NCBI RefSeq assembly: GCF_000242915.1
Contig: NZ_AFRZ01000001.1
Location: forward strand, 1,364,001 to 1,428,000
Direction of reading: 5' to 3'
DNA: 64,000 bases
Origin: Sulfurimonas gotlandica GD1
GTDB taxonomy: Bacteria; Campylobacterota; Campylobacteria; Campylobacterales; Sulfurimonadaceae
This document shows, piece by piece, positions 29,303 through 56,767 of the stretch (positions within the stretch are counted from its first letter, which is position 1; each line of letters opens with the position of its first letter). The position numbers and the translations under genes are program-made. The notes below the pieces were generated by a model. That model ran no database searches, was not told the origin of the DNA, and worked only from the letters and a program-made list of their open reading frames with translations.

Positions 29303-30487
29303 TTAAAAAATAACTTTTCCCATCGCTGAGTAGTTAAGATTATCTACATAATCAACTTTAAATGGTATTGTTAGTGTTCCATAATTTTGTGCTATTTTAT
29401 CTTTTATAAGTCGCTTGTCTATTTTCTGTTTTGCTTGTAGAGTAATTAATATCTGCTCACTTCTTAGTAACTCTTTTTTATATATCAAACTTACAACCGC
29501 TTTTTCTACATCTTCTATCGTCTCGATAATTGATTCTATCTCAAGTGCAGATATTCTCTTTCCTGCAATTTTTATAAGTTTATTCGCACGTCCGAGAAGG
29601 GTAAAAGAATCACCATTTATGGCAACAATGTCTTGAGTTTTAAAGGGCTGTTTTAATTCTATGATTTTATTCTCTAAAAGGTATTTTGATATAAAAGGAG
29701 AGCTAAGAGTCAGTCTCTCATCTTCACTTTGGATACTAACGTATTTTAGACTTTTCCACTTGTTACTCACTCCTTTTTTATAAGCGATGCCACCAGTTTC
29801 AGTAGAGCCAAATAGTTGCATGACAGTTGTTTTGTATCTCTCTTGAAATAGAGTTACATCATCTAGATGCAGAGGTCCTGTAGAAGATATAAAGAGGCTC
29901 TTCGTTAGTTCTTTGTTGTCACTAACTTTTGCAAGTGCTTTTATGAATAGCGGAGTAGTAATGACAAGTGTATTATCCACTGAAGCTTCTTCTAATATCT
30001 CATAAGGCAAAAAATCATCCTTAACTATTAGTGTTATATCATTTAGATGCAGAGGTAGAAGAAGACCCGCTAATATTCCGTATATATGAACAAAAGGTAC
30101 GCTTACAACAACGCGCTCGATATTAAAACTCTTAAGCAAATCTTTTAATACTTCTACTTCTTCTAAAAGATTTTGTCTACTTTTAAATGCACCTACAGGA
30201 AATCCGCTGCTACCTGATGTGAAAAAAAGAAGTTGAGCTATTTTGTTTACTTCATCAATGTCTTCAAAATTATTCAAATCATTTTCTTCGTAAAACTTTT
30301 GAAGCTTAGTGTGGTTCTTATCAAATAGAACTATTTTCTGTCCACTTGAAAAAGCTGAAAAAAACTCTTTTATAAACTCTTTTTTTGAAGTTGAGTTTAT
30401 ATTTATCCACTCATCTGATGTCTCTTTGTTTAGAGATATATCTATGATTTCTCTTGAAGAGTCTTTGTTGATGTATTCAATAATCAC
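29303..30487 (-). CDS. AMP-dependent acyl/aryl ligase of the aryl polyene cluster
   Basis: A 394-aa member of the acyl-adenylating superfamily, shorter than typical CoA ligases (~500 aa). Motif A3 reads LLFFTSGSSGFPVGAFK and A5 reads LFGSTETGG; a catalytic lysine candidate is near the C-terminus (YSAMGKVIF). In aryl polyene clusters such a ligase loads the aromatic starter onto an ACP (ApeH-like). Here the starter would be the cinnamic or coumaric acid from the ammonia-lyase. It is the last gene of the main cluster operon and overlaps the exporter gene by 4 nt. Confidence 0.85.
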   Translation of the reverse strand: MIIEYINKDSSREIIDISLNKETSDEWININSTSKKEFIKEFFSAFSSGQKIVLFDKNHTKLQKFYEENDLNNFEDIDEVNKIAQLLFFTSGSSGFPVGAFKSRQNLLEEVEVLKDLLKSFNIERVVVSVPFVHIYGILAGLLLPLHLNDITLIVKDDFLPYEILEEASVDNTLVITTPLFIKALAKVSDNKELTKSLFISSTGPLHLDDVTLFQERYKTTVMQLFGSTETGGIAYKKGVSNKWKSLKYVSIQSEDERLTLSSPFISKYLLENKIIELKQPFKTQDIVAINGDSFTLLGRANKLIKIAGKRISALEIESIIETIEDVEKAVVSLIYKKELLRSEQILITLQAKQKIDKRLIKDKIAQNYGTLTIPFKVDYVDNLNYSAMGKVIF

Positions 30488-32589
30488 TTCATGCTCCTAA
30501 TAAGTATAAAAATAGAAATAATTCCTAAAGATATAACCATTCCGATTGACTCTAAAGCTACAATTGAACTAAAGACTAATACTCCAAAACCGGCAAATGT
30601 ACTAAGAAGAGAGTATCTGATGGCTAAGACTGTATTGGCTTGCTCTTTTGTGTTACTCATATAGATTCCATAATCAATACCGATGGCAATAAGTATGATA
30701 AGTGAGAATAGATGCATTAAGTTTATGGTGTAAAAAACACTTAAAACAGCCAGCACTAAACTTGATGGAAATATTATGTAGTTAAGTGCATATAAAAATT
30801 TAGCTTTAACACTAAAGAAAAGAAGTACAAAAACTGCAAGTATGACTAAGCTAGAGTAGAGTGCCAGATCATCATACATCTTATTGGCTTGTTTTTTAAA
30901 CATCTCTTTTGCATCTATGTTTGTTACAAAATTAAATGATGAAGCTTTTGATATATTATCTACTAAAGCTATAGTAGAGTAAGAGTTTTTATCATTATAA
31001 GCATATAGATTGTAGGAGTTAAATATATCTAGCTTAGGTATTTTACACTCTGCTAGATTTTCTGTAAAGCTGTATGACTCCTTGAAATAGCCCTTTTTAA
31101 AGCCTATCTTTGCAGCGTGTTCATTAATAATAGAATTGAGTCTTGAAAAATCATAATTAGTGAGCAGTTTTCTCTTTTTTTCACAGCTCTCTTTATCTTG
31201 AACAAATGTAGCAAGTGAAAAGCTATTTGGCACTCTTAGATGCAGTAGATGCAAGTTAGTTATGAGTTCTTCTTTTGATTTTGCTTGGACGATAATAGGC
31301 TTTAGATTTGTTTTGATAGATGATTTAAAGAACTCTTCTTTGTCCATAAGTTTAGTGTTTTGATAGTCTAGATTTCTGATATTATTATCTAAAGATAGAT
31401 TATAAATACTAAAGCTCAGTAGTAAGATAGAGAGTGTAAAAAACAGAGATGCTGAGAGTTTTTTTGAACTCTTTTTTATGATAGTTTCTTGTTTATACTC
31501 TTGAATTTGTAATTTTGGAAATATAAATGTGAATAGTAGATAAGCAAAAGAGAGCGAAGCAACTGCAAAAAAACTGATTTGTGAAATGATAGGAATAGGG
31601 ATAAAAGAGAAAATCACAAAAGCGACAGTTGTAGTTAAAAATCCATAAAGAACATTTTTGTCTATTTTTTTACCGCTTTGAAAAAAGTTATGAAAATAAT
31701 AGTGAAGCAGATAATCAATGCTCACAGCTGTTACGCTCATCCCGAAGGCTAGAGACAGAATATTGAAATTCGAATATATAAGAGTACTTACAAGCGTTGC
31801 AAAGAGCATTGACGAGGAAAGGGCCAATAGTGTATGTGATAGCAGACGGATATTTTTTATGAGTATGTAGTAGATTAGAATTAGAACTAAACTAGAGAGT
31901 ATAATTATCCACTTAACATCATTTTTTATCTTTGTGGAATTTTCAACTGTATAAAAAAATGGAGCAAAGGCAACTGCATCTGGATACTCTTTTAGAACTA
32001 AATGTACTTTTTCATATAGAATCTTAGCTTCGTTCATTTGAGATGCAGATACATCTGTGCTAACACGAATCAGATAACCAAAATCTCCTAGTGCTAAAAA
32101 ATCCCCCTTATGAGAAAGGTTTGATTGGTGAGTATTACTTATGTTAAAAAGTTTTAGAGGATCATTTTTGTCAACACTTGTATAAAAAATATTTGTAGTC
32201 ATTGAGTTGTATAACTCTTGGAGTTGTCGCTTTACGCTTTGAACGCTCTGTTCCTTATCATCAAATGAAGCAATTAGTGCAAAGTTATTTTTGTAGTATT
32301 GTAGTTGTGCATCTGATGGCGTCAGTGTTGATTGAACGCTTTTAATCCCGTCAATAGTTTTTAATTTTTGTGAGAGGGAATAAACTTTTGTTTTTGCAGA
32401 GTTGTCAAAGCCCTTTATGGCGATTAGCATCTCTTTTGAGTAACCAAGTTTAGATGCAATACTTAACTTCTCTATGGACTCTTTTGAAGCAAATAACGAG
32501 AGTAGATTTGTAGAGATGTTTATATGCTCTTTTAGTAAGAAAGCTGCCCCAAGAAGGAGGGTTAGGATTATGTAATTAGCGTATTTCAT
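30484..32589 (-). CDS. MMPL/RND-family exporter of the pigment cluster
   Basis: A 701-aa protein with two sets of about six membrane helices, each preceded by a large periplasmic loop, the MMPL layout. Segments such as AFGMSVTAVSIDYLLHYYFH and ILIAIGIDYGIYMSNTKEQA carry the conserved acidic residues (D in IDY) of helix 4 and 10. MMPL proteins in aryl polyene clusters are thought to move the lipid-linked product from the inner membrane. It overlaps the LolA-like gene by 14 nt, suggesting the two act together. Confidence 0.88.
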   Translation of the reverse strand: MKYANYIILTLLLGAAFLLKEHINISTNLLSLFASKESIEKLSIASKLGYSKEMLIAIKGFDNSAKTKVYSLSQKLKTIDGIKSVQSTLTPSDAQLQYYKNNFALIASFDDKEQSVQSVKRQLQELYNSMTTNIFYTSVDKNDPLKLFNISNTHQSNLSHKGDFLALGDFGYLIRVSTDVSASQMNEAKILYEKVHLVLKEYPDAVAFAPFFYTVENSTKIKNDVKWIIILSSLVLILIYYILIKNIRLLSHTLLALSSSMLFATLVSTLIYSNFNILSLAFGMSVTAVSIDYLLHYYFHNFFQSGKKIDKNVLYGFLTTTVAFVIFSFIPIPIISQISFFAVASLSFAYLLFTFIFPKLQIQEYKQETIIKKSSKKLSASLFFTLSILLLSFSIYNLSLDNNIRNLDYQNTKLMDKEEFFKSSIKTNLKPIIVQAKSKEELITNLHLLHLRVPNSFSLATFVQDKESCEKKRKLLTNYDFSRLNSIINEHAAKIGFKKGYFKESYSFTENLAECKIPKLDIFNSYNLYAYNDKNSYSTIALVDNISKASSFNFVTNIDAKEMFKKQANKMYDDLALYSSLVILAVFVLLFFSVKAKFLYALNYIIFPSSLVLAVLSVFYTINLMHLFSLIILIAIGIDYGIYMSNTKEQANTVLAIRYSLLSTFAGFGVLVFSSIVALESIGMVISLGIISIFILIRSMK

Positions 32590-33061
32590 CAGCTATTTTT
32601 ATAGTTATTTTGTCACTATTTTTTAAAAATAGTTTTATCTCTTTGAGCTTTTTTTCACTTTTTTCTAGCTCAATAGAATTGACGAAGTGACGTAAGCTTC
32701 CCTTTGGTTTTAGCAGAGTTTTATCAGCATGAATCTCAACATCAAACATACTTTTTAGTAGTTTGCCATCTCCACTGTGAAGTAGGATTATTGTCTCAAG
32801 GTATTGAATTATATGTTGGGTTTGTGATTCATCAAGAATTATCTCTTGTCCATCTTCTTTATATGTAAGTTTTGAATCTTGCAAACGCAGATTCTTTTTA
32901 CTCTCTTTATAGTTGATAGAGAGTCCATTTTTTAAGAAACTTATTTCGCCATTGAGCTCCATGCTTCTACCCAGAGCATCGCTATATCTTAGTTCTGTGA
33001 AGTTGAAGCTATCTGCATTTGCAATTAAAAAGCTTAAAATTAGGATGATTATTTTTGACAT
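32576..33061 (-). CDS. LolA-like outer membrane lipid carrier
   Basis: A 161-aa periplasmic protein with a short signal peptide (MSKIIILILSFLIANA) and an LolA-like beta-rich body (ELNGEISFLKNGLSINYKES). Clusters for aryl polyenes and flexirubins usually contain such a LolA relative next to the MMPL exporter; it likely ferries the lipid product across the periplasm. Sequence similarity to true LolA is weak, so the call leans on context. Confidence 0.72.
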   Translation of the reverse strand: MSKIIILILSFLIANADSFNFTELRYSDALGRSMELNGEISFLKNGLSINYKESKKNLRLQDSKLTYKEDGQEIILDESQTQHIIQYLETIILLHSGDGKLLKSMFDVEIHADKTLLKPKGSLRHFVNSIELEKSEKKLKEIKLFLKNSDKITIKIADEIR

Positions 33062-33774
33062 GACTCACTCATAATATTGTGTGTGTATTTTAACATATCG
33101 CTCTCGTTGGAAAACTTATCAGGATATATCGGTTCTAGCATCTGGACTTTTATATTGGCTTTTTTAGTGCCGGAGAAACAAAAATTACCTTTTGCAAGTA
33201 TATCTGCTGAGCCGTCGATTACGATTGGGATAATTGGTTTATTAGTCTTCATTGCAAGTCTAAATGCACCCTTTTTAAATCTTCCAAGTCCTTTTCCACT
33301 ACCGCGAGTTCCCTCTGCAAAGAAGACTACGTTTCTATCTTCTTGGAGCATCTGCTCAAACTCACCATAGGTATCACTGATGTTGCCAAGGTTATTTTTG
33401 TCTAAATGTCTTATGCCTATTAGATGCCCGACTTGTGAAATAAAAGGGATTTTTTTAAAGTTCATCGTAGTCATTATGAGATACTTTTGTATGAAATATC
33501 CAAGGATTGGATAGTCTAAGTTTGATTGATGAGTTGATACATATACAGCACTTTTTGGGAGTTCTTCAAGTAGTTTTATATCTAATTTTATTCTTGGTAT
33601 AGAAAAGAAAAATATTTTATAGATAACACTTGATAGATACTGAAATCTGTCTTGCGGGTACTTTACAAATGGATAAGAGATGCCGTAGATGAGTAGTGAT
33701 GGAATTACAAATAATCCTATAAGACCAAAAAACAGTATAAAGGCAAAACTACTTGCTATGCATCCTAATCGCAT
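33049..33774 (-). CDS. 1-acylglycerol-3-phosphate acyltransferase-like protein (PlsC family)
   Basis: A 241-aa lysophospholipid acyltransferase family member with the catalytic HQSNLD (H-x4-D) motif in STHQSNLDYP and the substrate-binding EGTRGSG. An N-terminal membrane helix anchors it. I chose the ATG at 33774 (MRLGCIASS) because GGGAGG lies 4 nt upstream; an ATG four codons earlier has no ribosome site. In this cluster it probably attaches the polyketide chain to a glycerolipid. Confidence 0.87.
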   Translation of the reverse strand: MRLGCIASSFAFILFFGLIGLFVIPSLLIYGISYPFVKYPQDRFQYLSSVIYKIFFFSIPRIKLDIKLLEELPKSAVYVSTHQSNLDYPILGYFIQKYLIMTTMNFKKIPFISQVGHLIGIRHLDKNNLGNISDTYGEFEQMLQEDRNVVFFAEGTRGSGKGLGRFKKGAFRLAMKTNKPIIPIVIDGSADILAKGNFCFSGTKKANIKVQMLEPIYPDKFSNESDMLKYTHNIMSESCQK

Positions 33775-34291
33775 AGAGCCTCCCATAGAGTACTTGAATT
33801 ATTAGAGCTAAAAAGAAGAAGATGTACCAGCCAACAGAGCTGTAGAATGCCCATAATACATCATCATAAAAAGTTAAAGCAAATTGCATTAAAGTAGATA
33901 TAGATACAGCCCAAATCCAATACTTATCTCCATCTCTTAAAAAAGCAATCTCTCCTTCACTTAACTTCTTTGGATAAAATTTTTGTGTAAATTTTAGTAT
34001 AAATTCTCTTTTATTGATAGTAGCATCTATAAAAATGCTCAAAAACATAAGTGAGACTAAGACTGGTATAAATTTAACCATTGCGAAACTGGCATAAAAA
34101 AAAGAAAATACTAGAAGTAAAAAGTAGATTATTGGAACTATCAACTCTTTTGATATTTTATATTTGATATATGTAAAAAGTAGAAGTAGAAGGGATAGCG
34201 CAATGTATAGAGTAACGACTACCTCAAATTCAAAGTAGTGTAGAAATATTAGAAAGGTTGGTGCGAAAAGTAGTGTAAAAACACTACTCAT
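33749..34291 (-). CDS. COG4648-type membrane protein of aryl polyene clusters
   Basis: A 180-aa protein with about six membrane helices and the segment NKREFILKFTQKFYPKKLSE in a cytoplasmic loop. This pattern, next to an ACP gene and a PlsC gene, matches the COG4648 proteins seen in aryl polyene clusters (ApeG-like). Biochemical role unknown. Overlaps its neighbours by 8 and 26 nt. Confidence 0.75.
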   Translation of the reverse strand: MSSVFTLLFAPTFLIFLHYFEFEVVVTLYIALSLLLLLFTYIKYKISKELIVPIIYFLLLVFSFFYASFAMVKFIPVLVSLMFLSIFIDATINKREFILKFTQKFYPKKLSEGEIAFLRDGDKYWIWAVSISTLMQFALTFYDDVLWAFYSSVGWYIFFFLALIIQVLYGRLYAIRMHSK

Positions 34292-34532
34292 TATTACTTG
34301 TAGCTAAAACAAAATCACACACGTCTTTTACTGTTCGTATATCTTTCATCTCTTCAGTTTTAATCTCTATTCCTAACTCTTTATCTAGAGTTACCATAAG
34401 GTCGATAGCATCTAAAGAGTCAAGTTCCAAATCTGTAAACAGGTTGGCATCTACATTGATGTCATCACTATCAACTTCAAATTCTTCAACTAATACAGAT
34501 ACTATTTTGTCATATACTTCTTCTTGAGTCAT
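34284..34532 (-). CDS. Acyl carrier protein 1
   Basis: An 82-aa acyl carrier protein with the phosphopantetheine attachment Ser39 in DLELDSLDAID. It sits directly after a ketosynthase gene (one-nucleotide overlap). One of three ACPs in the cluster; dedicated ACPs for starter and extension are known in aryl polyene systems. No phosphopantetheinyl transferase is visible in the window. Confidence 0.92.
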   Translation of the reverse strand: MTQEEVYDKIVSVLVEEFEVDSDDINVDANLFTDLELDSLDAIDLMVTLDKELGIEIKTEEMKDIRTVKDVCDFVLATSNNE

Positions 34533-35764
34533 TAACTGTTGCCTTTATATTTTTTAAAAATCAGTGAGCTATTTATCCCACCAAATGCAAAATTATTATT
34601 CATCGCAATTGTAATATCTTTTTGCATATTTTCTCCTAAAACATTAATATTAGCACACTCTTTATCTAAGTTTTTAAAATTCATTGTTTTTGGAAGAAGA
34701 GATTTATTTAAAGCGATGAGACAGATAATAGATTCAACTACTCCACACCCGCCAAGAAGATGTCCCATATGACCTTTTGTGCTACTAACAGGAGTCTTAG
34801 AACCAAAAAGGCTAAAGGTAGCATTAGATTCTGCTATATCTCCCATTTGAGTCGCTGTAGCGTGAGCGTTTATATAATCAATATCTTGGGCATTTATAGA
34901 GGCATCTTCTAAAGATGTCTCCATTACTTGCATCATTCCCTCTTTTGATGGAGTTGTAATATGTTCACCATCACATGAAGTTGCATAACCTATTACTTCT
35001 CCATATATCTTAGCTCCACGAGCCAGAGCGTGATCAAGCTCTTCTAAAACAACAGCACCGCTTCCTTCACCTAAGACTAAACCATTACGACTCTCATCAA
35101 ATGGACGAGAAGCCAGTTCAGGTTCATCATTGTGTTTCGTAGAAGCAGCTCCCATAACATCAAAAACACCAGCTGCCAAATAGTGAAGACCTTCAGCCCC
35201 TCCACATATCATAATGTCACTCATGCCGTATTTAATACTTTCATAGCCAGCGCCTATTGCTTGAGCTGATGAAGTACAAGCTGAACAAGTTGGAATGTTA
35301 CGCCCTTTGATTGAGAACATTTGGGCTAAGTTCGCAGCTACTGTATGACTCATTATTTTTAAAAAGGCCATTGAGTTTTGTCCACGAAAGCTCATACTCT
35401 GTTTTACTTCTGGAACATATTCAAAAAGAGTCTCATTTCCACCCATAGTTGAGCCAAAGGCGATGCCACATCTTTTTGAGCTGATAATCTCTTGTGCCAG
35501 ATTTGCATCTGCTATTGCATCTGCGGTTGAGATTGCGCTGAGTTGAGCAACTCTATCCATAGAACGGCGGTACTTTCTTGGGATTGATTTCAGATCGACG
35601 TCTTTTACGATGCCGGCAACTTTTGTACCTAGATGGTCTATCTCTTCCCACTCAGGTATATATTCAATTCCGCATTTCTCATTTTTTAAACTCTCGTACA
35701 GTTCGTCATAACTATTTCCAAGTGGTGAGTTTAGTCCTACACCAGTTATTACAACTCTTCGCAT
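34532..35764 (-). CDS. Beta-ketoacyl-ACP synthase (FabF-like KS 1)
   Basis: A 410-aa ketosynthase with a complete active site: Cys163 in TCSACTSSAQAIG, a histidine in NAHATATQMGD and the second in KGHMGHLLGG. It performs decarboxylative condensation in chain extension. It has the normal FabF length, unlike the shorter KS partners elsewhere in the cluster, and may be an ApeR-like enzyme. Its start overlaps the stop of the radical SAM gene (TAATG). Confidence 0.93.
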   Translation of the reverse strand: MRRVVITGVGLNSPLGNSYDELYESLKNEKCGIEYIPEWEEIDHLGTKVAGIVKDVDLKSIPRKYRRSMDRVAQLSAISTADAIADANLAQEIISSKRCGIAFGSTMGGNETLFEYVPEVKQSMSFRGQNSMAFLKIMSHTVAANLAQMFSIKGRNIPTCSACTSSAQAIGAGYESIKYGMSDIMICGGAEGLHYLAAGVFDVMGAASTKHNDEPELASRPFDESRNGLVLGEGSGAVVLEELDHALARGAKIYGEVIGYATSCDGEHITTPSKEGMMQVMETSLEDASINAQDIDYINAHATATQMGDIAESNATFSLFGSKTPVSSTKGHMGHLLGGCGVVESIICLIALNKSLLPKTMNFKNLDKECANINVLGENMQKDITIAMNNNFAFGGINSSLIFKKYKGNS

Positions 35765-37200
35765 TATGCTCTAACCTTTTGCATTATTTTTGTCTTCATA
35801 AATCCTAGAAAAAAGAGTAAAAGTCTTTTTATATGAGTTGGATTTGAAAGCGCCATATTCTGATAGTGAAGTAGTATTTTAACACGTTTATAAAAAGTGG
35901 CTATTACTTCTTTGTACTCTTTGTCCAATTCTTCTTGTGTAAAAGCCTCTGCTTTATATACAAAGTTCATGCCGTTTAGCCTATCCCAGTCCTCTTCTCT
36001 AATAGATGTCCCGTATAGCTTTTTATAGATTGGAGAGCCTGGATATGGAGTGAACTTTGAGAGATTCATAGTTGTCAGTGGCAGACCTTTTATAAACTCT
36101 TTTGTAGTTTGCACACTCTCTTTTGTCTCTCCAGGATAACCAAGCATAAAGAGTCCTTTGACTCTGATGCCAGCTTCGCTTGTCCACTTAACAGCTCGAG
36201 CAGAGACTTCTGCTGTGATTGATTTTTTCATCTCTCTCAGCATCTCGTCAGAACCGCTCTCAAGACCAAAACTTATTTCCCAGCATCCAGCCTTTTTCAT
36301 CATAGCCAGAGTCTCAGGTTTTACCGTGTCAACTCTAGCTGTACAACTCCAAGTCATATCTATTTTATTAGCTATTAAAAGTTCACAAAGTCTTAAAACA
36401 TGTGCATTGTTTGCAACAAAGAGATCATCTACAAACTGTAGATGCTTTACTCCATACTCTGTGCTTAAGTGCTTCATAATCTCATAAACTTTCCCAGGAG
36501 AGTTATATCTTATCTTTGAGCCGAAGGTAGAAGTGTCACAAAACTCGCATTTAAAAGGACAACCTCTTGAAGCTGAGTAAGTAGCCACAGGAGCTCTAGG
36601 ATAATCAAAAATAGCAGGAAGATATCCTTTTGGAAAGTTAGGCAGAAGATCCCATGCAGGCATAGGTAGGCTATCGAGCTCTTTTATGCTTGGAGGTGGA
36701 GTAGTTGTTTTTAGAGAGTTATCTGTATCTCTATAAATAATACCTTGAACATCTTCTAAGGGATCTCCATTTTCAATGCTAGAGAGTAGTTTATTAAGTA
36801 TCATCTCTCCCTCATACAGAGCAGCTATATCAAAACTATTAAACTTTTTCATAGTCTCATAACCCATAGAAGAGATATGTGGTCCACCAACCATAATCGT
36901 GATGTCAGGATTTTTCTCTTTTATAAGAGTGGCTATGATAGAAGCGTTAAAAACACCTACTGTAAAGAGTGTAATTCCTACAAATTTTGGGTTAATCTCT
37001 AAAACCATATCAGCAACAGTCTGTGCTGATAAGTTTTCTAAGTCACTCTCTATGATTTGAGGAGAGTAACCATCTTTTCTAGCTTGAGCAGCAAGAAGCA
37101 AAAGTCCTAAAGATGGAGATCTGTTTATGACATGTTTTACGTGGTCATTCCCAGGTGCGATTTGTTCATAAGGAGGATTTATAAATATGATATCGCTCAT
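35764..37200 (-). CDS. B12-binding radical SAM enzyme
   Basis: A 478-aa class B-type radical SAM protein. Residues 1-145 form a B12-binding-like Rossmann domain (FINPPYEQIAPGN, GITLFTVGVFN, VGGPHIS); residues 200-420 hold the radical SAM barrel with Cys214-x3-Cys218-x2-Cys221 (RGCPFKCEFCDTS) binding the 4Fe-4S cluster. Relatives carry out methylations, cyclisations or ring formation. No classical DxHxxG cobalamin-binding motif is evident, as is common in this class, so cobalamin use is inferred. Encoded in the middle of the pigment cluster, between KS 1 and the FAD enzyme. Confidence 0.88.
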   Translation of the reverse strand: MSDIIFINPPYEQIAPGNDHVKHVINRSPSLGLLLLAAQARKDGYSPQIIESDLENLSAQTVADMVLEINPKFVGITLFTVGVFNASIIATLIKEKNPDITIMVGGPHISSMGYETMKKFNSFDIAALYEGEMILNKLLSSIENGDPLEDVQGIIYRDTDNSLKTTTPPPSIKELDSLPMPAWDLLPNFPKGYLPAIFDYPRAPVATYSASRGCPFKCEFCDTSTFGSKIRYNSPGKVYEIMKHLSTEYGVKHLQFVDDLFVANNAHVLRLCELLIANKIDMTWSCTARVDTVKPETLAMMKKAGCWEISFGLESGSDEMLREMKKSITAEVSARAVKWTSEAGIRVKGLFMLGYPGETKESVQTTKEFIKGLPLTTMNLSKFTPYPGSPIYKKLYGTSIREEDWDRLNGMNFVYKAEAFTQEELDKEYKEVIATFYKRVKILLHYQNMALSNPTHIKRLLLFFLGFMKTKIMQKVRA

Positions 37201-49206: not shown

Positions 49207-49883
49207 AACCAGCCTCTAAGTAGAAGATATCTCTGCATAAGCAGTTTTATGTGAAGCAGAGTTATATGTACATTGTCCCAAAGTTTATCAAAGTGAGAAA
49301 CTCTTTCTCCGTGCGGTGGATAGTAGCACTCAACTTCTACATCTTTAATCTTCCCGCCCCTGTATGAGTGATGTACCAATATCTCAACTTCAAAATCAAA
49401 ACGACGATTCGTAAGTGGGAGTTCCAGTATAGAAACAGGGTACATTCTAAAACCGCTCTGTGTATCACTTAGAGATTTTAGAGTCTCGAGCATAATCCAG
49501 AAGTTACTGAATTTTCTGCCAAACTTTGAACTATTTGGAATATTTTCCTGCTCGAAGTTACGGTTTCCTATAACAATGGTCTCATCTTCGTATGCATCTG
49601 TCAGCTTTTGAATCTGTGAGCTTAGATGCTGTTTGTCTGCATCTACACTCACAAAAGAGTCATAACCCAACTCTTTTGCTTTCTTTGCCCCACTTAAAAT
49701 TGCTTCACCCTTACCCATATTGATAGGATGCGTAACTAATTCTATATCCAAATTTTCAGCATCTACGGGCTTGTCTGAGCCATCATCTACAACTATAACT
49801 TTGTAGCCATAACTTAAAACATCTTCAATGACTTCTTTGATGTATGGAGAGTTGTAAACTGGAATAACTATACAAAAATTCAC
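49197..49883 (-). CDS. Family 2 glycosyltransferase
   Basis: A 228-aa GT2 enzyme: FCIVIPVYNSPYIKEVIEDV, VVDDGSD, the DxD metal site in VSVDADKQH, then TQSGFRMYP and FDFEVEILVHH. It has a C-terminal amphipathic helix (LHIKLLMQRYLLLRGWLW) that may bind the membrane. Members of this group in aryl polyene clusters are thought to decorate the lipid anchor. Sugar donor unknown. Confidence 0.87.
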   Translation of the reverse strand: MNFCIVIPVYNSPYIKEVIEDVLSYGYKVIVVDDGSDKPVDAENLDIELVTHPINMGKGEAILSGAKKAKELGYDSFVSVDADKQHLSSQIQKLTDAYEDETIVIGNRNFEQENIPNSSKFGRKFSNFWIMLETLKSLSDTQSGFRMYPVSILELPLTNRRFDFEVEILVHHSYRGGKIKDVEVECYYPPHGERVSHFDKLWDNVHITLLHIKLLMQRYLLLRGWLWK

Positions 49884-50173
49884 AGGCTGAAACTTGCTAC
49901 TTCTGCATCTTGGCAGAATACTCTGAATTTGTTGTCATTTCTTTCATATTTGATTGTCTGAGAAGGAGTGATTATTTTAGTGAATTTTGCCTTTTTTATC
50001 GTAGTGATATCGAGGTCAAAAACATCTGCAACTATTTCAAAATGCACAAATCCAGGTAAAATTGGTTGAGTTGGAAAGTGGGCTTTAAAAATCGGGTGAT
50101 TTTCATCACAAAATTCCACTATAGCACTTGCTTCGTCTTTGTGCAAGAGCGTGTATAACTTATCAATTAGCAT
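49880..50173 (-). CDS. Hot-dog fold 3-hydroxyacyl-ACP dehydratase (ApeI-like)
   Basis: A 97-aa FabZ/FabA-like single hot-dog domain with the catalytic HFPTQPILPGFVHFE loop containing the conserved His and the proline-glycine pair. It would dehydrate 3-hydroxyacyl-ACP to a trans-2-enoyl unit. It is the first gene of the main cluster transcript; its ribosome site AAGAG lies 4 nt before the ATG. Confidence 0.85.
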   Translation of the reverse strand: MLIDKLYTLLHKDEASAIVEFCDENHPIFKAHFPTQPILPGFVHFEIVADVFDLDITTIKKAKFTKIITPSQTIKYERNDNKFRVFCQDAEVASFSL

Positions 50174-50270: not shown

Positions 50271-50468
50271 ATGAAATATTTTTTTATATTAATAGCAGCA
50301 TTATTACTTACTACAGGCTGTACAAAAAAAGAGTTTAAAACAAATTGGCATAATGTAAAAGATGGTACATCAAAGAGATGGAATGATGGCAAAAAAGATT
50401 TTAAAAAGTCTACAGAAGAGTATGAAGAGAATAAGAAAAAAGACACTAATACAACTAAAGCTAACTAA
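50271..50468 (+). CDS. Small lipoprotein
   Basis: A 65-aa protein with a signal peptide and lipobox LLLTTGC (Cys17), leaving a highly charged mature chain rich in Lys, Glu and Asn. A good ribosome site (AAAGG) precedes the ATG. It is linked to the methyltransferase gene by a TAATG overlap. Function unknown. Confidence 0.75.
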   Translation: MKYFFILIAALLLTTGCTKKEFKTNWHNVKDGTSKRWNDGKKDFKKSTEEYEENKKKDTNTTKAN

Positions 50469-51532
50469 TGTTTGAAAGTGATGACATAAGCGGAGAAAAA
50501 GCTCTTTTAGAAGCTCAAAAAATTGCTTTTGGTCCAGTAGTTTTTCAAACGGCAAGATTACTTCGTGATTGGGGAGTTTTTGAACTACTTCAAAATAACA
50601 GAAAAGGCTTTAGTGTAGAAACTATTTCAAACAAGCTTGGCTTAACGCTTTATGCGGCACAAATCTTATGTGAGTCAGGTTTCAGTATGGGTGCATTGAA
50701 GTTAGAAAATGATATTTACACATTAACAAAAATTGGTTATTTCCTACTAAATGATGAGATGACAAGAGTTAATATGGACTTTAATCATGATGTGAATTAT
50801 CAAGGGCTATTCTTCTTAGATGAAGCACTTAAAACACAAAAACCATCAGGACTACACGAAACATTTTCAAAAGAGGAAACGATTTATCCTATACTATCTG
50901 AACTACCGCCAAAGGCAAAGCAGAGTTGGTTCGCTTTTGATCACTTCTACTCAGATGCTGCCTTTGTGAAGCTTGTGGATATTATGAGTCAAAAAGGTAT
51001 TAAAAAGCTTCTTGAACCTGGTGGAAATACTGGAAAATGGTCTATCGCATTAACTAAAGTATCACCTGATACTACGGTTACAATCCTTGATCATCAAGGT
51101 CAAATAGACGTTGCTATACAAAATGCAGATGCAAACGGTGTTGGTGAGAGAGTTGATGGTATTGCTATAGACTTGCTTGATCACAGCATACCTTTTCCAA
51201 ATGGGTTTGACGGTGTTTGGATGAGTCAGTTCTTGGATTGTTTTGCTCCGCAAGATATAATCGCACTTTTAAAACGTTCCAAAGAAGCCTTAAACAAGGA
51301 TGGAAGAGTTTATATAGTTGAACCATTTTGGGATAGACAAAGTCATGAGATTGGTTCATACTGTCTCATAAACACATCACCATATTTTACGGCTCTTGCA
51401 AATGGAACAAGTAAAATGTATAGAGCAAGCGAAATGAAAAAGTTTGCAAATGAAGCTGGTCTTGAGGTCGAAGAAGAAATAAATGGTCTTGGCTTTGGTC
51501 ATACTTTAATGATATGTAAGGTTAAGGGATAA
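50468..51532 (+). CDS. SAM-dependent (O-)methyltransferase
   Basis: A 354-aa class I methyltransferase with an N-terminal winged-helix dimerisation region (FQTARLLRDWGVFELLQN, FSVETISNKLGLTLYAAQIL) and a SAM-binding motif LLEPGGNTGKWSIALTKV, then VTILDHQGQ. This layout is that of plant-type O-methyltransferases and crtF-like enzymes. Because it sits next to the pigment genes, methylating a phenolic or resorcinol hydroxyl is a fair guess. It is transcribed away from the cluster. Confidence 0.85.
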   Translation: MFESDDISGEKALLEAQKIAFGPVVFQTARLLRDWGVFELLQNNRKGFSVETISNKLGLTLYAAQILCESGFSMGALKLENDIYTLTKIGYFLLNDEMTRVNMDFNHDVNYQGLFFLDEALKTQKPSGLHETFSKEETIYPILSELPPKAKQSWFAFDHFYSDAAFVKLVDIMSQKGIKKLLEPGGNTGKWSIALTKVSPDTTVTILDHQGQIDVAIQNADANGVGERVDGIAIDLLDHSIPFPNGFDGVWMSQFLDCFAPQDIIALLKRSKEALNKDGRVYIVEPFWDRQSHEIGSYCLINTSPYFTALANGTSKMYRASEMKKFANEAGLEVEEEINGLGFGHTLMICKVKG

Positions 51533-51555: not shown

Positions 51556-52122
51556 TTAAGTAGCCCCACCAATAATTTCTACAACTCTGTTATCTTGAAA
51601 TTTATATTGAGAAGTTTTAAATCGGTGATCCCAATATTTCCATAAATCAGCTTTTAGAGAAAGGGTCTGGTGTAAAGGTGGATAACCGCGAGCCAGTAAA
51701 ACCTCGTCTTTTGTCATACCTACCACGACTTTACCATTTTTAATATTTTCTTTTACAGCTTCATCATATTTAGATAAATCTACTGTGCTTTTAGCAAACA
51801 ATCTATTTAACATCTCAGAGGTATCAATCTTTGTGTATTTAGTTGATGTAGTATACGTTATTTCAGCACCAAGATATTTAAATACAATGCCATTATTACT
51901 GGCACTTATAATTTTAACTTGTGCGTTTATTGGTATAAGCAAACCTCTCGAAAAGTTAAGACCTTGTACTTTATTTTTTTCTGTCCACATAGCCACCTGT
52001 GTGTATAGTGAAGCTTGAGAATCTACTAAAGTTTGCTGTGCAGGTGTCAGTTTGGCCGGGCCACAACCAAGCATAATAAGTGTTGTAAAAAATAATACTA
52101 GAACCGAAAGTGTTTTTTTCAT
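51556..52122 (-). CDS. Lipoprotein of unknown function
   Basis: A 188-aa lipoprotein with lipobox IMLGC (about Cys18). I start at the ATG at 52122 (MKKTLSVLVLFFTT), which has AAGGAAAA about 6 nt upstream; the open frame extends 32 codons further but not as plausible protein. The C-terminal half, with VVGMTKDEVLLARGYPPLHQ, resembles SmpA/OmlA-like (BamE) folds in which a Gly-Met-Thr start of a helix is followed by a 'G.P' turn. No clear partner nearby. Confidence 0.75.
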   Translation of the reverse strand: MKKTLSVLVLFFTTLIMLGCGPAKLTPAQQTLVDSQASLYTQVAMWTEKNKVQGLNFSRGLLIPINAQVKIISASNNGIVFKYLGAEITYTTSTKYTKIDTSEMLNRLFAKSTVDLSKYDEAVKENIKNGKVVVGMTKDEVLLARGYPPLHQTLSLKADLWKYWDHRFKTSQYKFQDNRVVEIIGGAT

Positions 52123-52244
52123 TGTTTTTTCCTTGAAAAATTTAATATCATGGTATTTAAAATATTCTTTTGTGTTGCTGAATATATAGTGAAGTAATTT
52201 TAGTAAATTAATAAACAATAGTTTTAAAAATAAAAATAAAATGA

Positions 52245-52250: not shown

Positions 52251-52274
52251 TAAAACAAAAATAAGGGTTTTTTC

Positions 52275-53474
52275 ATGTTAAAAAAAATATTAGTTTCGGT
52301 GCTATTTGTCGGATTGTTTTTTCAGGGATGTACTAAGCAGGTTTTAAATCTTAGCAATGTGCCTATTAAACAAAAAGTTCCGATGGAAGACGTAACAAAA
52401 GCAATTCAGGCAGGTGCTTTCCAAAAGGGTTGGACTACTAGAGTAGTAAAACCAGGAGAGATTGAGGCTGAGATAGTAATTAAAAACTATATGGCAAAAG
52501 TAAAAATAAATTATGATACAACTAATTACAGTATAAGTTATATGGATAGTAAAAATCTAAAATATGATGGAACAAAAGTACATAGAACTTATAACTCTTG
52601 GGTGGCAAACCTTAAAAAAAATATAGATGCTAGATTAGCATTGGATAATTCTAATGCACAGATAGGTACTCCATTGGCTGTAAATGGAAATCATAAAGCA
52701 AAAAATGGCAGTTCTTCAGGTTACCCATATACATTTAAAAAATCTGTCAAAGAAAAAGAAGATTCTTTCGCACTTGTAATAGGGATAAGCAGGTATCAAC
52801 AAAATACTCCGGTTGAATACGCAGATACATCGGCTCTAGCTTTTGCAGAACTGGCAAATAAAACCTTCGGTATACCAAAACAAAATATTATAACCCTTGT
52901 AAATGATGAGGCTACATCTGGGCAGTTAAAAGCAAAGATTGAATTATTAAAAGAGCTTGCAGATAAACGAGGCAATATCTATATATATTTTGCCGGACAT
53001 GGTGTTCCTGGTAAAGATGGTAGCACATATATGTTGCCATATGATATGACTGCAGATGGCATACATTTGGAGCCAAGCTTGAAACTGGATAATATTTATG
53101 CAAAACTATCAACATTAAATGTAAAAAATGTATTTGTGTTTATGGATAGTTGTTTCAGCGGGAAAGATGATAAGGGAGGCTTGTTATACAGAGGTGTAGC
53201 ACCAGTTCTTAAGAGCAAAAAAACTGTTATAGATGCGGATAACATTACTATTATTACAGCAGGTCAATCAACTGATTTCGCAAATGACTATAGAGACAAG
53301 GGACAAAGAATGTTTTCTTACTATCTTATAAAAGAGTTGTCTGATGGCGAAACTAATCTAAATAAGATTTATCCTGAAATAAAAAGCAGTGTTAAGAGAT
53401 CATCGTTAATGAAGGGAATTGGTTATAAACAAGTTCCTCAAATTTACGGAAATAAATCGGTGCTGTTATATTAA
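52275..53474 (+). CDS. Caspase-fold (C14) lipoprotein
   Basis: A 399-aa exported lipoprotein (lipobox LFFQGC, Cys19). Residues 30-120 are a small domain ending SYMDSKNLKYDGTKVHRTYN, a pattern seen in other short bacterial lipoproteins. Residues 163-399 are a caspase/metacaspase domain: FALVIGISRYQ, then the catalytic His242 (YFAGHGVPG) and Cys293 (FMDSCFSG). The dyad is intact, so it may be an active protease on the outer membrane or in the periplasm. It overlaps the next gene by one nucleotide. Confidence 0.9.
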   Translation: MLKKILVSVLFVGLFFQGCTKQVLNLSNVPIKQKVPMEDVTKAIQAGAFQKGWTTRVVKPGEIEAEIVIKNYMAKVKINYDTTNYSISYMDSKNLKYDGTKVHRTYNSWVANLKKNIDARLALDNSNAQIGTPLAVNGNHKAKNGSSSGYPYTFKKSVKEKEDSFALVIGISRYQQNTPVEYADTSALAFAELANKTFGIPKQNIITLVNDEATSGQLKAKIELLKELADKRGNIYIYFAGHGVPGKDGSTYMLPYDMTADGIHLEPSLKLDNIYAKLSTLNVKNVFVFMDSCFSGKDDKGGLLYRGVAPVLKSKKTVIDADNITIITAGQSTDFANDYRDKGQRMFSYYLIKELSDGETNLNKIYPEIKSSVKRSSLMKGIGYKQVPQIYGNKSVLLY

Positions 53475-54430
53475 TGAATAAAATATTTTTTCTTTTTCTT
53501 GTACCAATTTTGTCTTTTGCATCACCTGCGTGGATGTTTAATTTAAAACATGATAAAAATTATATTATCGGGTATGGAATGGATACTTCACTTGAAAAAG
53601 CAAAGCAGAATGCTATGATGGATATCACACATTCCATATCTGTAAGCGTAGAGTCAAATGTTGATATATCTACAAAAGACAACAACGGTAAAGCCAGCAA
53701 TAATTCTTCTGTAGATTTACACACTCGCTCAAAAGCTATATTGAGTGGTGTTGAATTTATAAAAATCGAGCAAAACAAAGATTTATGGTGGGTAGCTGCA
53801 AAATATGACAACTCTCCTGTTGAGATAAAGTTTAGAAAATCTTTGCCTGAGACTTTTAAAGATGAAAATCAAAACAGATATTTAAAAAATACTCCTCTTG
53901 GTAAAAGCATAGATGCTGAGTTAAAACATAAGCTTAACTATAATGTAGTCAGAAAAGACAACCTTTGGCAGTTAAAGTATAGAGATGTGCTGGTTCCGAT
54001 AAACCAAGTGAACTTCTATAAACTATTTTCAAATCAAAAAACTAAAGCTATCTCAATGAAAGCAAATCAAAAGATTTATGTTACTCATGATGAGATGTTC
54101 TTTGAATTGGAGCACAAAAAGAGTGGGTATATATCTATTTTATATGTTGAGCATAATGGAAAAGTAGGTGTTCTTTTATCAAATAAAAAATCAGACAAAT
54201 CTTTTAAATATCCTGATGCAAAAAATGAAGATGTTTTTAAAATAGCAAATCCATACGGTAAAACTATACGAGAACTTTATGTAGCAATCTATTCGAAAGA
54301 ACCTATAGATCTCAATCAGTTTGAAAATGTTGGTCACAGTCTTCTTGATGATAGTAACTTTGCTTTTGAGAAGTTACTATCTTTGTTACAGGAGTATGAT
54401 TACTCTACGTATGCAATAAAGATTAGATAA
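53474..54430 (+). CDS. LPP20-like/DUF4384 exported protein, partner of the caspase lipoprotein
   Basis: A 318-aa protein with signal peptide (MNKIFFLFLVPILSFA), an LPP20-like N-terminal domain (about 20-115, with GYGMDTSLEKAKQNAMMDI) and a C-terminal domain (about 205-300: EMFFELEHKKSGYISILYVE, IRELYVAIYSKEPID) that fits DUF4384. DUF4384 is often joined to caspase domains, which supports a partnership with the preceding gene. Start and stop overlap (TAATG), indicating coupling. Confidence 0.75.
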   Translation: MNKIFFLFLVPILSFASPAWMFNLKHDKNYIIGYGMDTSLEKAKQNAMMDITHSISVSVESNVDISTKDNNGKASNNSSVDLHTRSKAILSGVEFIKIEQNKDLWWVAAKYDNSPVEIKFRKSLPETFKDENQNRYLKNTPLGKSIDAELKHKLNYNVVRKDNLWQLKYRDVLVPINQVNFYKLFSNQKTKAISMKANQKIYVTHDEMFFELEHKKSGYISILYVEHNGKVGVLLSNKKSDKSFKYPDAKNEDVFKIANPYGKTIRELYVAIYSKEPIDLNQFENVGHSLLDDSNFAFEKLLSLLQEYDYSTYAIKIR

Positions 54431-54431
54431 T

Positions 54432-54803
54432 TTACTGCAAGGCTATAACAAAAACACCAGATGCTATAAGTTTCTTAGAATGACTTGCTTCAAAACTGAA
54501 ATAAGTCAATGCATCTAGAGCATGCTGGTAAGTTACTCTAATATCGTACTCTAAAGATTCTGCTTTTTTTATAAGCTTGACATTCTTTAGAGTCACTAAA
54601 AACCCCATCTTTCCTTCGCCATCACTAAATGCAGCACTACTTTGTGCGGCTGCTTCAACAAGCATGGAAAGTGTTGGTAAAGATTCAAACTCAGCTCTTA
54701 CAAGAGCTGAAGTCTCATCTTTTGAGATAATATATTTTGCAAATCTTACAGGTGCCTGATGAGGTAGATTTAACTCTTTCACAGCTCTACTTCTATTATG
54801 CAT
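54432..54803 (-). CDS. Hot-dog dehydratase (ApeP-like)
   Basis: A 123-aa hot-dog protein with NLPHQAPVRFAKYI (catalytic His) and LSMLVEAAAQSSAAF helix, typical of the COG4706/ApeP dehydratases that work with aryl polyene ketosynthases. The ATG at 54803 is used here; a GTG at 54782 giving a 4-nt GTGA overlap with the preceding gene is an equally likely start and would remove seven residues. Last gene of the four-gene minus-strand block that ends 2 nt from the LPP20 gene. Confidence 0.82.
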   Translation of the reverse strand: MHNRSRAVKELNLPHQAPVRFAKYIISKDETSALVRAEFESLPTLSMLVEAAAQSSAAFSDGEGKMGFLVTLKNVKLIKKAESLEYDIRVTYQHALDALTYFSFEASHSKKLIASGVFVIALQ

Positions 54804-55420
54804 CTATCATTTTCTTTACACAAATCATATAAGTTTTTCATCCATTCTAAAGAGTTTGGTACACCAGCAAGAGCGTTATTTTGTATTATTAAGTTTGCTG
54901 AATCTTCTGTTTTTTTAATGACAAAAGCTATACCGTATTCAAGTTCATCTTTACACTTGTTTAAAACATCAACACCATCAAAATTCATAGCTTCAATTGC
55001 GCATACAAAAACTTGCGTCTTGCTTTGCAGAGCTAAAGCACCTTGTTGCATAACAGTGTATGAAGTATTGTCACCAGATGATAAAGTAAGTATTTCATCT
55101 GTATTGCACTCAACTATAGAGTGATAAGAGGGAGCAGTATTGTAAACAGAGTTTTGAAAGGCGGTTGGGCTTACTGCTTCTTTAGAATTTATAGCTTCTA
55201 ATATAGCTACACTATCTCCAAGTTCTCCATAGGCACTTCCATAAACTATAGCACCTTTTTGAAAGTCACATTCATGTGCAAGGTAAATCAGTATTTTTGA
55301 ACTTCGACTTAGCCTACGTCTGATCATCATCTTTGTGACAAGCTCTTTTTCATTGAGGTTTTCAATTTTTAAAGGGTGATGAATAATAGCCTTTTTTATG
55401 ATCTCAACATTAACTTTCAT
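54779..55420 (-). CDS. Beta-ketoacyl synthase chain length factor (ApeC-like)
   Basis: A 213-aa protein with SPTAFQNSVYNTAPSYHSI and LTLSSGDNTSYTVM, the signature of the short ketosynthase-like chain-length-factor family (Pfam PF13723). The usual active-site Cys is absent. The ATG at 55420 has GGAG 6 nt upstream and overlaps the ketosynthase stop by 11 nt; 15 further codons upstream are unlikely. ApeC forms a heterodimer with the ketosynthase ApeO in aryl polyene synthesis, matching the gene order here. Confidence 0.83.
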   Translation of the reverse strand: MKVNVEIIKKAIIHHPLKIENLNEKELVTKMMIRRRLSRSSKILIYLAHECDFQKGAIVYGSAYGELGDSVAILEAINSKEAVSPTAFQNSVYNTAPSYHSIVECNTDEILTLSSGDNTSYTVMQQGALALQSKTQVFVCAIEAMNFDGVDVLNKCKDELEYGIAFVIKKTEDSANLIIQNNALAGVPNSLEWMKNLYDLCKENDRCIIEVEL

Positions 55421-56513
55421 TAACAACTCCAAAAACAAGTGCAACATTATTTCCGCCAAAAGCAAAAGAGTTGCTGAGTGCGTACTCTATCTTTGATTCT
55501 CTTGCATCTGATATTAGGTTTATATCTTTTTCTTTTTGTGTGCAATCGAGTTGAGGAGGCATTAGTTGTTTTTTTAGAGCTTCTACGCATATTATTGCTT
55601 CTATGGCTCCGGCAGCACCAAGAGTATGGCCTAAGTTTGATTTTGATGAACTAACAGCTACTTCATTGCCAAATATTTCAAGTATTGCATTTGCCTCTGA
55701 TTCATCGTTTGCCTGTGTGCCAGTTCCATGAGCATTGATATAGCCAATTTGATTTGCTTCTATATTAGCATCTGATAGTGCTTTATTTATAGCAGATATT
55801 GCTCCAGTTGAAGTTGGATCTGGATTCGCAATATGGTAAGCATCACTGCTTGCACCACAACCACATAACTCCACAGAGTTTTTAGTTGGAAAATTTTGAA
55901 GCAGTAAAGCGCCGATGCCTTCGGCTACATTCATCCCTTTTCTCTCACTCTTAAAAGGTGTACAAATTTCATCAGATAAAATGCCTAAAGAACTAAAACC
56001 AAAAACAGTAGTAGAACATATCTCATCAGCACCTACTACTAAAATATTTTCATATGCATTTATAGCAATAAGCTCTTTTGCAGTTTTTAGCGCATTTGCA
56101 CTAGAGGTACAAGCGGTTGAATATGAGCGATGTGATAAGAAATTAAACTTAGCATCTAAAGTAGAAGCTATGACGTTTATAGTGTGTTTTTGCGGATTGA
56201 TATTTTTGTAGTTTTTATCTTTAAAAAGGATCTTTTCTGTTGTTGCCATACCACCAACTGATGAGCCTACAAGCAGAAGGGTGTTTGAAAAATCTTTTAA
56301 GTTAGAAGCATTTAGAACTTCTTTAACACTTTTAATAAGAAGTTCATCGAAGTTAAAACCTTTTTCAAACTTTCCTATACATACTTTTTTTTCACTGACA
56401 ATATTATCATAAACGCTTAAAGCACTTTTTTTATGAAACACAGCGTCTAAAGTCTTTTTAGTGTCTCCTGAAGCGCTTTGCATGGCACAAGCAGTTATGT
56501 ATGTTTTACTCAA
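55410..56513 (-). CDS. Beta-ketoacyl-ACP synthase (KS 3, ApeO-like)
   Basis: A 367-aa ketosynthase with Cys135 (STACTSSANALKTA), NAHGTGTQANDE and LGHTLGAAGAIEA. With the chain-length factor, ACP 3 and the ApeP-like dehydratase it forms a complete aryl polyene elongation block. It starts 4 nt inside the end of the ACP gene. Confidence 0.92.
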   Translation of the reverse strand: MSKTYITACAMQSASGDTKKTLDAVFHKKSALSVYDNIVSEKKVCIGKFEKGFNFDELLIKSVKEVLNASNLKDFSNTLLLVGSSVGGMATTEKILFKDKNYKNINPQKHTINVIASTLDAKFNFLSHRSYSTACTSSANALKTAKELIAINAYENILVVGADEICSTTVFGFSSLGILSDEICTPFKSERKGMNVAEGIGALLLQNFPTKNSVELCGCGASSDAYHIANPDPTSTGAISAINKALSDANIEANQIGYINAHGTGTQANDESEANAILEIFGNEVAVSSSKSNLGHTLGAAGAIEAIICVEALKKQLMPPQLDCTQKEKDINLISDARESKIEYALSNSFAFGGNNVALVFGVVNES

Positions 56514-56767
56514 TTTTTTAATTGCTCATTTATGTATGCTGTTAATGATTCACAAGAAGCGAATATATTTTCAGCTTCAGCCATATTAGTAACTTTAACA
56601 CCAAATTCTTTTTCTAAAATCAGAGTTAGCTCAATAGCATCTACGGAGTCTAGTCCAAGACCTTCATCCCCAAAAAGTGGCATATCATCTTCTATCTCAT
56701 CTGGGCTAATATCTTCAAGGCTTAAGCCTTGAATAATTTTGTTTTTTAAATCTTCAATATTTACCAT
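56510..56767 (-). CDS. Acyl carrier protein 3
   Basis: An 85-aa ACP with Ser41 in GLGLDSVDAIEL. It resembles ACP 2 (both open with [L]-[D/N]-I-[E]-x-L-K and contain SPDEIE/TPDEIE), suggesting duplication. It heads the separate four-gene block and shares the upstream gap with mgtE, transcribed the other way. Confidence 0.92.
   Translation of the reverse strand: MVNIEDLKNKIIQGLSLEDISPDEIEDDMPLFGDEGLGLDSVDAIELTLILEKEFGVKVTNMAEAENIFASCESLTAYINEQLKN

Follow-up and report, generated by a model that had tools for sequence, protein, structure and literature searches.

Can a campylobacterote make a flexirubin-like pigment, and what product would its genes specify? The question is raised by a 27.5-kb gene cluster of Sulfurimonas gotlandica GD1, located at 29303-56767 of the window, the whole stretch of 64,000 nucleotides analyzed here (positions 1364001-1428000 of the single-contig 2.95-Mb genome). 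By Pfam and NCBIfam, the cluster combines an aryl polyene (APE) assembly line with a dialkylresorcinol (DAR) operon, and it comprises 31 probable genes (open reading frames, ORFs), of which 28 lie on the minus strand (Table 1; 30 of the 31 ORFs were scanned with Pfam and 28 with NCBIfam). Based on this gene content, we consider it likely that the cluster makes a flexirubin-like APE-DAR ester that is started by an ammonia-lyase, is placed in the cell envelope and, by analogy, probably serves as a membrane antioxidant.

Two biosynthetic halves in one cluster

A sequence-only reading of this DNA had proposed an APE-DAR hybrid cluster in a campylobacterote, and family matches, counterparts in the APE cluster of Escherichia coli CFT073 and the gene order of the DAR operon bear this out. 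The E. coli cluster is described as containing every gene required for its own polyene (PMC8253772). When its 18 proteins were compared with the cluster, matches at E 0.01 were obtained for 13 window proteins that do not belong to the DAR operon (three of these matches being weak), including counterparts of the ketosynthases KS1 and KS3, the acyl carrier proteins (ACPs) ACP1 and ACP3, the chain length factor (CLF; 34% identity over half for the protein at 54779-55465), the ketoreductase, the methyltransferase, the MMPL exporter, the GT2 glycosyltransferase and the ligase; the matches of the ligase, the MMPL exporter, two acyltransferases and the dehydratase DH1 were the weaker ones. The two clusters differ in that the E. 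coli cluster has neither DAR genes nor an annotated ammonia-lyase. Solved relatives of the window proteins include ApeO and ApeC (6qsp) and StlD (5gk0), and the ApeO/ApeC, CFT073 and FabZ/ApeI matches together account for an APE-type pair of ketosynthase and CLF, a ketoreductase, ACPs and a dehydratase. All three FabF-type ketosynthases keep the active-site cysteine (SACTSS in KS1, TACTSS in the two others), and the catalytic motifs of the ketosynthase, ACP, lyase, reductase, radical S-adenosylmethionine (SAM) and DarB proteins are intact.

The DAR operon encodes, in order, DarA, DarB, a DarG-family protein, DarH, an ABC ATPase, an ABC permease, an ACP, a ketosynthase and a ketosynthase-like protein lacking the active-site cysteine. 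By annotation, with D and K assigned by position only, this is the order darA-B-D-E-F-I-C-J-K of the arcuflavin (arc + dar) producer Azoarcus sp. BH72 (PMC3949708, table 1). The Azoarcus operon differs in harboring Phd- and PilT-like genes, which are absent here, and unlike in Azoarcus the polyene and DAR genes stand together. The Pfam scan, which covered 30 ORFs of the cluster, returned neither a halogenase nor a chorismatase family, including the XanB2 type that provides the arcuflavin and xanthomonadin starter; no search for a chorismatase was made elsewhere in the genome. Three NCBIfam models are exceeded, those of DarH (498 bits, cut-off 300), the DarG family (169 bits, cut-off 70) and StlD/DarB (605 bits, cut-off 450), so that two of the enzymes expected in an APE-DAR hybrid, a DarB/StlD-type ketosynthase and a BtrH-type DarH, are present. 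The 269-residue protein at 40778 has no cysteine at the active-site position, and its AlphaFold model, built from 13 sequences, gave its highest TM-scores among the 50 matches listed with chain B of the ishigamide ketosynthase/CLF (0.62-0.66). For ACP2, homology in several relatives starts at residue 51 of the longer ORF.

Much of the inventory in the sequence-only reading stands: family matches confirm the lyase, the aryl ligase, three ACPs, three ketosynthases, one ketoreductase, the ABC-2 exporter, the BtrH-domain protein and the acyl- and glycosyltransferases, as does the StlD/DarB score for the DarB-like enzyme. Both CLF-like proteins hold as well, that at 54779-55465 through matches to ApeC of 6qsp and to CFT073, and that at 40778-41587 through its cysteine-less thiolase-fold model. 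Left out of that inventory were a B12-binding radical SAM enzyme (35764), which is the cluster's most unusual gene product, a CrtD-like flavoprotein (37212), a FlxJ/ApeB-type methyltransferase (50468) and a caspase-domain lipoprotein (52275).

Proposed product and its alternatives

From gene content, intact motifs, conserved neighborhood and co-occurrence we infer the following scheme. The lyase, of the 4-methylideneimidazole-5-one (MIO) type, would convert tyrosine (or phenylalanine) into an arylacrylate to be loaded by the AMP-dependent ligase; KS3 with the ApeC-type CLF, KS1, the ketoreductase and the dehydratase(s) would extend this starter on the ACPs to a conjugated polyene, and the FlxJ/ApeB-type methyltransferase would methylate the ring. 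ACP2, KS2 and its cysteine-less neighbor may supply the acyl chain for DarB, which would condense it to a cyclohexanedione that DarA would aromatize to a resorcinol. DarH would then join polyene and resorcinol as an ester, and the ABC and MMPL exporters together with the acyl- and glycosyltransferases would put the product in the envelope. The radical SAM enzyme, accompanied in some clusters by the CrtD-like flavoprotein, may modify the polyene further, most likely by C-methylation.

The alternative that survives best, though we regard it as unlikely, is that polyene and resorcinol are two products, an outer-membrane APE and a free dialkylresorcinol or cyclohexanedione, and that their genes are clustered for co-regulation. 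The DAR operon does carry its own exporter, and 11 genomes from the Desulfobacterota side that bear DAR genes, all of them metagenome-assembled genomes (MAGs) of unknown completeness, gave no lyase relative at E 1e-30; a twelfth genome searched, an Aliivibrio MAG, has two. Against two products speak the presence of the BtrH-related acyltransferase DarH, the Azoarcus product, which is described as a polyene-DAR hybrid (PMC3949708), and the conserved linkage of the two halves within Campylobacterota. DarH (NF053550) was detected in 21 of the 397 Campylobacterota genomes sampled, representing 13 of 68 genera, and in none of 14 control genomes. In all 13 of the 20 further DarH-positive Campylobacterota genomes that were fetched, an ammonia-lyase gene lies within 20 kb of the dar genes, bringing the total in which both occur together to 14 genomes from 12 genera. 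In the phylum of the Desulfocapsaceae MAG DarH was found in 22 of 198 genomes (12 above the cut-off), and in that of the Aliivibrio MAG in 11 of 299 (8 above the cut-off).

The B12-binding radical SAM enzyme tracks these clusters. Orthologues (E 1e-60) are found in 6 of 135 genomes of the genus, in every case next to polyene genes; the fetched stretches of five also contain dar genes, and the sixth (G470) was fetched for 20.0 of 29.6 kb. Within the phylum an orthologue is present in at least 4 of 397 genomes, apparently the same draw as for DarH, and all four are DarH-positive (hypergeometric 5.9e-6, kinship ignored). The CrtD-like flavoprotein is rarer, with at least 2 of 397, and one of these two genomes (G105) has no radical SAM match in its cluster; both counts are lower bounds, since four candidates were scored in many genomes. 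Two genomes (G203 and G299) have the radical SAM gene between the 180-residue membrane protein and LolA or MMPL, and in a third (G393) it is on another contig, adjoining a relative of that membrane protein with 25% identity. The nearest solved relative of the enzyme is AprD4 (E 2.5e-26), and its top-scoring family models (ApyD, HpnJ and BchE) all stay far below cut-off. Members of the B12-dependent radical SAM class most commonly carry out C-methylation, and because the gene adjoins polyene and not DAR genes, the enzyme is predicted to tailor the polyene, most likely in this way. As a separate observation, a second flavoprotein, with 25-28% identity to that of the window, is encoded in three of the Sulfurimonas clusters that have the radical SAM gene (L078, L081 and L082); in L082 (13311-14936, 541 residues) it is CrtI/carotenoid-isomerase-like.

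The same enzymes raise another alternative, namely that a separate module for anaerobic poly-unsaturation, made up of the CrtD-like flavoprotein, the radical SAM enzyme, KS1 and ACP1, is embedded in the pigment cluster. Such a module has been proposed for ladderane lipids and Desulfotalea hydrocarbons, whose type II fatty acid synthase (FASII) clusters are described with a B12-domain radical SAM enzyme and a phytoene-desaturase-like flavoprotein (PMC2649909). The kinds of enzyme are indeed the same, and at three loci of Desulfocapsaceae/Desulfobulbaceae MAGs (L015, L021 and L026) the DAR operon adjoins genes for a FabF, a CrtD-like flavoprotein and a radical SAM protein of the B12-binding kind. 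However, KS1 and ACP1 resemble ordinary E. coli APE genes (42% and 48% identity), the window enzyme has only about 25% identity to the radical SAM neighbors at those three loci and scores 108 bits against a cut-off of 360 with the ladderane model TIGR04072, and the G203 and G299 clusters, with their radical SAM genes, contain no CrtD, KS1 or ACP1 match in the 35-38 kb fetched. We therefore rejected this module as the principal explanation and regard it as improbable. That the cluster is silent or decaying is more improbable still: its distribution is patchy, and the caspase-domain and LPP20 genes between the cluster genes are absent from the other clusters examined, but its ORFs are open, its motifs are intact, and in the five congeners that have the radical SAM gene, identity is still 69-93% for the lyase, the radical SAM enzyme, KS1 and DarB.

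Returning to the flexirubin-like ester, several findings weigh against it. The literature searched yielded no report of a pigment from this organism. The scores for FlxA (341 of 700 bits), FlxB (270 of 340), FlxJ (443 of 560), flexirubin_DarG (118 of 170) and strict DarB (529 of 550) stay below the NCBIfam cut-offs, and the first four place the cluster outside the flexirubins as defined by the Flx models. The claim that this gene set defines flexirubins was thus too strong, the more so as the order of the DAR operon is that of an arcuflavin producer. The DarA identity, which had been taken from the sequence, is that of a candidate: the protein has a flavodoxin fold and adjoins DarB in 21 of 22 loci (the 22nd ends at a contig edge) and in three Streptomyces plasmids, but it matches no DarA model in NCBIfam. 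The DarB search of plasmids also returned StlD-like proteins of Prevotella and Pseudoalteromonas with no DarA adjacent. Of the two hot-dog dehydratases and the MMPL/LolA pair claimed earlier, one member each held up, the FabZ/ApeI-like protein at 49880 and the MMPL exporter. For DH2 (54432) there was nothing in Pfam to E 0.5 or in PDB sequences to E 1, and the LolA assignment is by position, with no family match in Pfam or NCBIfam. Several clusters that otherwise look alike lack the radical SAM enzyme, the CrtD-like flavoprotein, KS1 and ACP1, so that these are not core components, and two of the four phylum genomes with the radical SAM gene share a genus, which the hypergeometric value ignores. 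Lastly, the classical selectivity pairs of such lyases are H-L for tyrosine, F-L for phenylalanine and S-H for histidine ammonia-lyases (TAL, PAL and HAL). The window lyase keeps its MIO (ASG) motif, but its pair, F-H, fits none of these, so that tyrosine or phenylalanine as substrate, and the 4-coumarate that a flexirubin lyase would make, are tentative assignments.

Among characterized systems, the cluster resembles the flexirubin (flx + dar) clusters of Chitinophaga pinensis and Flavobacterium johnsoniae in its lyase, acyl-CoA ligase, several ketosynthases, reductases and dehydratases, and also in its acyltransferase, LolA-position protein, glycosyltransferase, exporter and darA-darB pair, with darA as a candidate (PMC3992019). 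In a comparison by family models and published gene content, it differs from them in the models not reached and in the added radical SAM enzyme; the term "radical SAM" is absent from the text of PMC3992019, and a B12-type radical enzyme for flexirubin-like pigments was not described in the literature searched. A further proposal, possible but rather doubtful, is that these clusters make an undescribed Campylobacterota class of flexirubin-like lipids in which the enzyme modifies the polyene without oxygen, by C-methylation or by a BchE-like oxygenation with water-derived oxygen, the gene having entered pigment clusters at two positions (the CrtD/KS1 side in Sulfurimonas and, in a second family, between the 180-residue protein and LolA).

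Insertion site and probable exchange between phyla

The cluster is an island, because two congeners without it keep its flanks only 3.3 and 5.0 kb apart. In the first (G441), the genes to the left (25160 to the SYLF lipoprotein gene 28656) and to the right (mgtE, 56915, onward) are collinear, and in the second (G319), which has no SYLF gene and no DarH, 27958 and mgtE are the flanking pair; cluster proteins had no match in either stretch at E 1e-5. In other congeners the cluster lies between the same flanks, minus the SYLF gene (G426), or elsewhere, with the radical SAM gene at 45015 of a contig that has the left flank gene at 1085969 (G487); one further stretch (G404) lacks mgtE and is otherwise arranged. 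The GC content of the cluster is 32-37%, like that of its flanks, as had been noted from the sequence.

The suggested exchange between phyla gains support for the DAR operon, marginally so by the approximately unbiased (AU) test. In a DarH tree of 56 rows, Campylobacterota split into two clades. One of them, set 1, holds the window together with Sulfurimonas, Sulfurovum, Sulfurospirillum and other MAGs, and groups at 99/98 support with the Aliivibrio MAG, the Desulfocapsaceae and their allied MAGs; set 2 stands apart, and eight further rows from the Desulfobacterota side lie elsewhere. The topology with all Campylobacterota together was only marginally rejected (p 0.05). A DarB tree of 47 rows agrees with weaker support (94/91), as do DarA identities, which are 54-57% to the Desulfobacterota side and 46-51% to set 2. 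A single origin of the DAR operon in Campylobacterota was accordingly set aside. The DarH tree excluded sequences with coverage below 85%, identical copies, cut duplicates (L051, L053, L055 and L067) and sequences of 24-26% identity (L131, L133, L143 and L144). The DarB tree was built without 17 locus ids known to duplicate rows that it retains; of two copies of the window DarB it used the shorter (361 residues), and L119 and L120 in it repeat L015 and L016. In the sample, which does not include Bacteroidetes flexirubin clusters, the nearest DAR relatives outside the phylum were those of the Desulfocapsaceae, the allied MAGs and the Aliivibrio MAG.

The polyene block seems to have a different history, since lyase identities (73-93% for set 1, 61-63% for set 2, and 40% and 30% for the two proteins of the Aliivibrio MAG) follow a pattern unlike those of DarH, DarB and DarA. 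An outside donor of the radical SAM gene found no support. Relatives outside Campylobacterota (E 1e-20) are present in 8 of 10 genomes with a DAR operon, the best full-length ones having 34% (G502) and 32% (G505) identity, and four of the five outside stretches fetched hold such a relative, whose neighbors gave no more than weak matches to GT2 or CrtD. The lyase pair varies within set 1: those of G219, G387 and G363 (L050, L052 and L057), and those of L011, L013 and L014, have F-C in place of F-H, and the clusters of G219, G387 and G363 contain no KS1, ACP1, CrtD or radical SAM match, hinting at another starter or product.

The nearest named relative of the window is the Sulfurimonas MAG OB8 (DarB, 87% identity). 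A cluster of this kind in Campylobacterota was not named in the literature searched, although two subscription papers (the 2013 DarAB survey of Fuchs et al. and the 2016 APE paper of Schoner et al.) may list some; PMC7699628 contains both "aryl polyene" and "Campylobacterota", with the phylum mentioned in general only in the text covered.

Gene list and significance

Table 1. ORFs of the APE-DAR island, with window positions, strands and the matches on which the assignments are based.
Feature	Position	Strand	Evidence
AMP-dependent ligase, likely aryl-starter activation	29303..30487	-	PF00501 E 2e-12; 27% to CFT073 APE acyl-CoA synthetase
MMPL-type exporter	30484..32589	-	phmmer 2e-25 to CFT073 APE MMPL; no Pfam match; homologue at same place in other clusters
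LolA-position secreted protein	32576..33061	-	precedes MMPL in several clusters; position only
Glycerolipid-type acyltransferase	33049..33786	-	PF01553 E 3e-23
180-residue membrane protein	33749..34291	-	phmmer 6e-6 to CFT073 C_RS05620, ApeG (COG4648) position (PMC8253772, table 1)
ACP1	34284..34532	-	PF00550; 48% to a CFT073 APE ACP
KS1	34532..35764	-	PF00109/PF02801; 42% full-length to CFT073 C_RS05565
B12-binding radical SAM enzyme (accessory)	35764..37200	-	PF04055 + PF02310; intact CxxxCxxC
FAD amine-oxidase/CrtD-like flavoprotein (accessory)	37212..38534	-	PF01593 E 1e-21; CrtD-like model far below cut-off
Ketoreductase	38531..39223	-	short-chain dehydrogenase/reductase; FlxB model 270/340 bits; 37% to CFT073 APE reductase
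MIO-type aromatic ammonia-lyase	39220..40734	-	PF00221 E 1.9e-142; ASG intact; selectivity pair F-H
CLF-like protein beside KS2, DarK position	40778..41587	-	AlphaFold pLDDT 82.5; Foldseek: ishigamide KS/CLF chain B, other thiolase folds
KS2, DarJ position	41584..42711	-	PF00109/PF02801; TACTSS
ACP2, DarC position	42704..42970	-	PF00550, PRK09184-like
ABC-2 permease, DarI position	42970..44055	-	PF12698
ABC ATPase, DarF position	44042..44884	-	PF00005
DarH, BtrH-related acyltransferase (BtrH_N/DUF4872), likely ester synthase	44885..45889	-	NF053550 498 bits, cut-off 300
DarG-family protein	45876..46292	-	NF053536 169 bits, cut-off 70
DarB/StlD-type ketosynthase	46292..47440	-	NF005293 605 bits, cut-off 450; StlD 5gk0 E 2.5e-130
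DarA candidate, flavodoxin-like domain + helical tail	47447..48358	-	AlphaFold pLDDT 90.2; Foldseek: WrbA/flavodoxins
LpxL-type acyltransferase	48355..49206	-	PF03279
GT2 glycosyltransferase	49197..49883	-	PF00535; 34% to CFT073 APE GT2
DH1, hot-dog dehydratase	49880..50173	-	FabZ/ApeI-like by profile
FlxJ/ApeB-type methyltransferase, likely aryl ring	50468..51532	+	NF053543 443/560 bits; 44% to CFT073 APE methyltransferase
Lipoprotein	51556..52218	-	no family match (Pfam, NCBIfam); relatives at several clusters
Lipoprotein, ApeA-like N-domain fused to caspase (C14)	52275..53474	+	PF00656; residues 38-122 40% to CFT073 C_RS05650, ApeA position (PMC8253772)
LPP20/DUF4384 protein	53474..54430	+	PF02169; no match in any fetched locus (E 1e-4)
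DH2, putative second dehydratase (unconfirmed)	54432..54803	-	near KS3/KSN2 or ACP3 in other clusters; no Pfam/PDB match
ApeC-type CLF	54779..55465	-	PF13723; 6qsp_B E 1.3e-5
KS3, ApeO-type ketosynthase	55410..56513	-	6qsp_A E 5e-49, third best of list; 42% over two thirds to C_RS05580
ACP3	56510..56767	-	PRK09184-like; 45% to a CFT073 APE ACP

Two plus-strand genes of the island stand somewhat apart. The LPP20/DUF4384 protein is probably an unrelated passenger. The caspase domain of the preceding lipoprotein has GHG and DSC motifs, and its N-domain is common to ApeA-position proteins and proteins of set-2 clusters, other fetched clusters matching the N-domain only. The caspase gene may be older than the island, because a caspase-domain stretch with weak similarity (20%, E 8e-5) is present at the cluster-less G319 site (L200 7256-7867). 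An Rfam scan of 28000-58500 gave no match, and promoter-like sites were fewer than in shuffled sequences (23 versus 32.1).

The yellow-orange flexirubins serve as a chemotaxonomic marker for Bacteroidetes (PMC3992019). The joint occurrence of lyase and dar genes in 14 Campylobacterota genomes (12 genera) would weaken that use, provided that the product can be confirmed. It would also mean that chemolithotrophs of sulfidic redox gradients carry an antioxidant-type pigment, whose retention light protection need not explain, and the radical SAM enzyme offers a defined target for new polyene chemistry.

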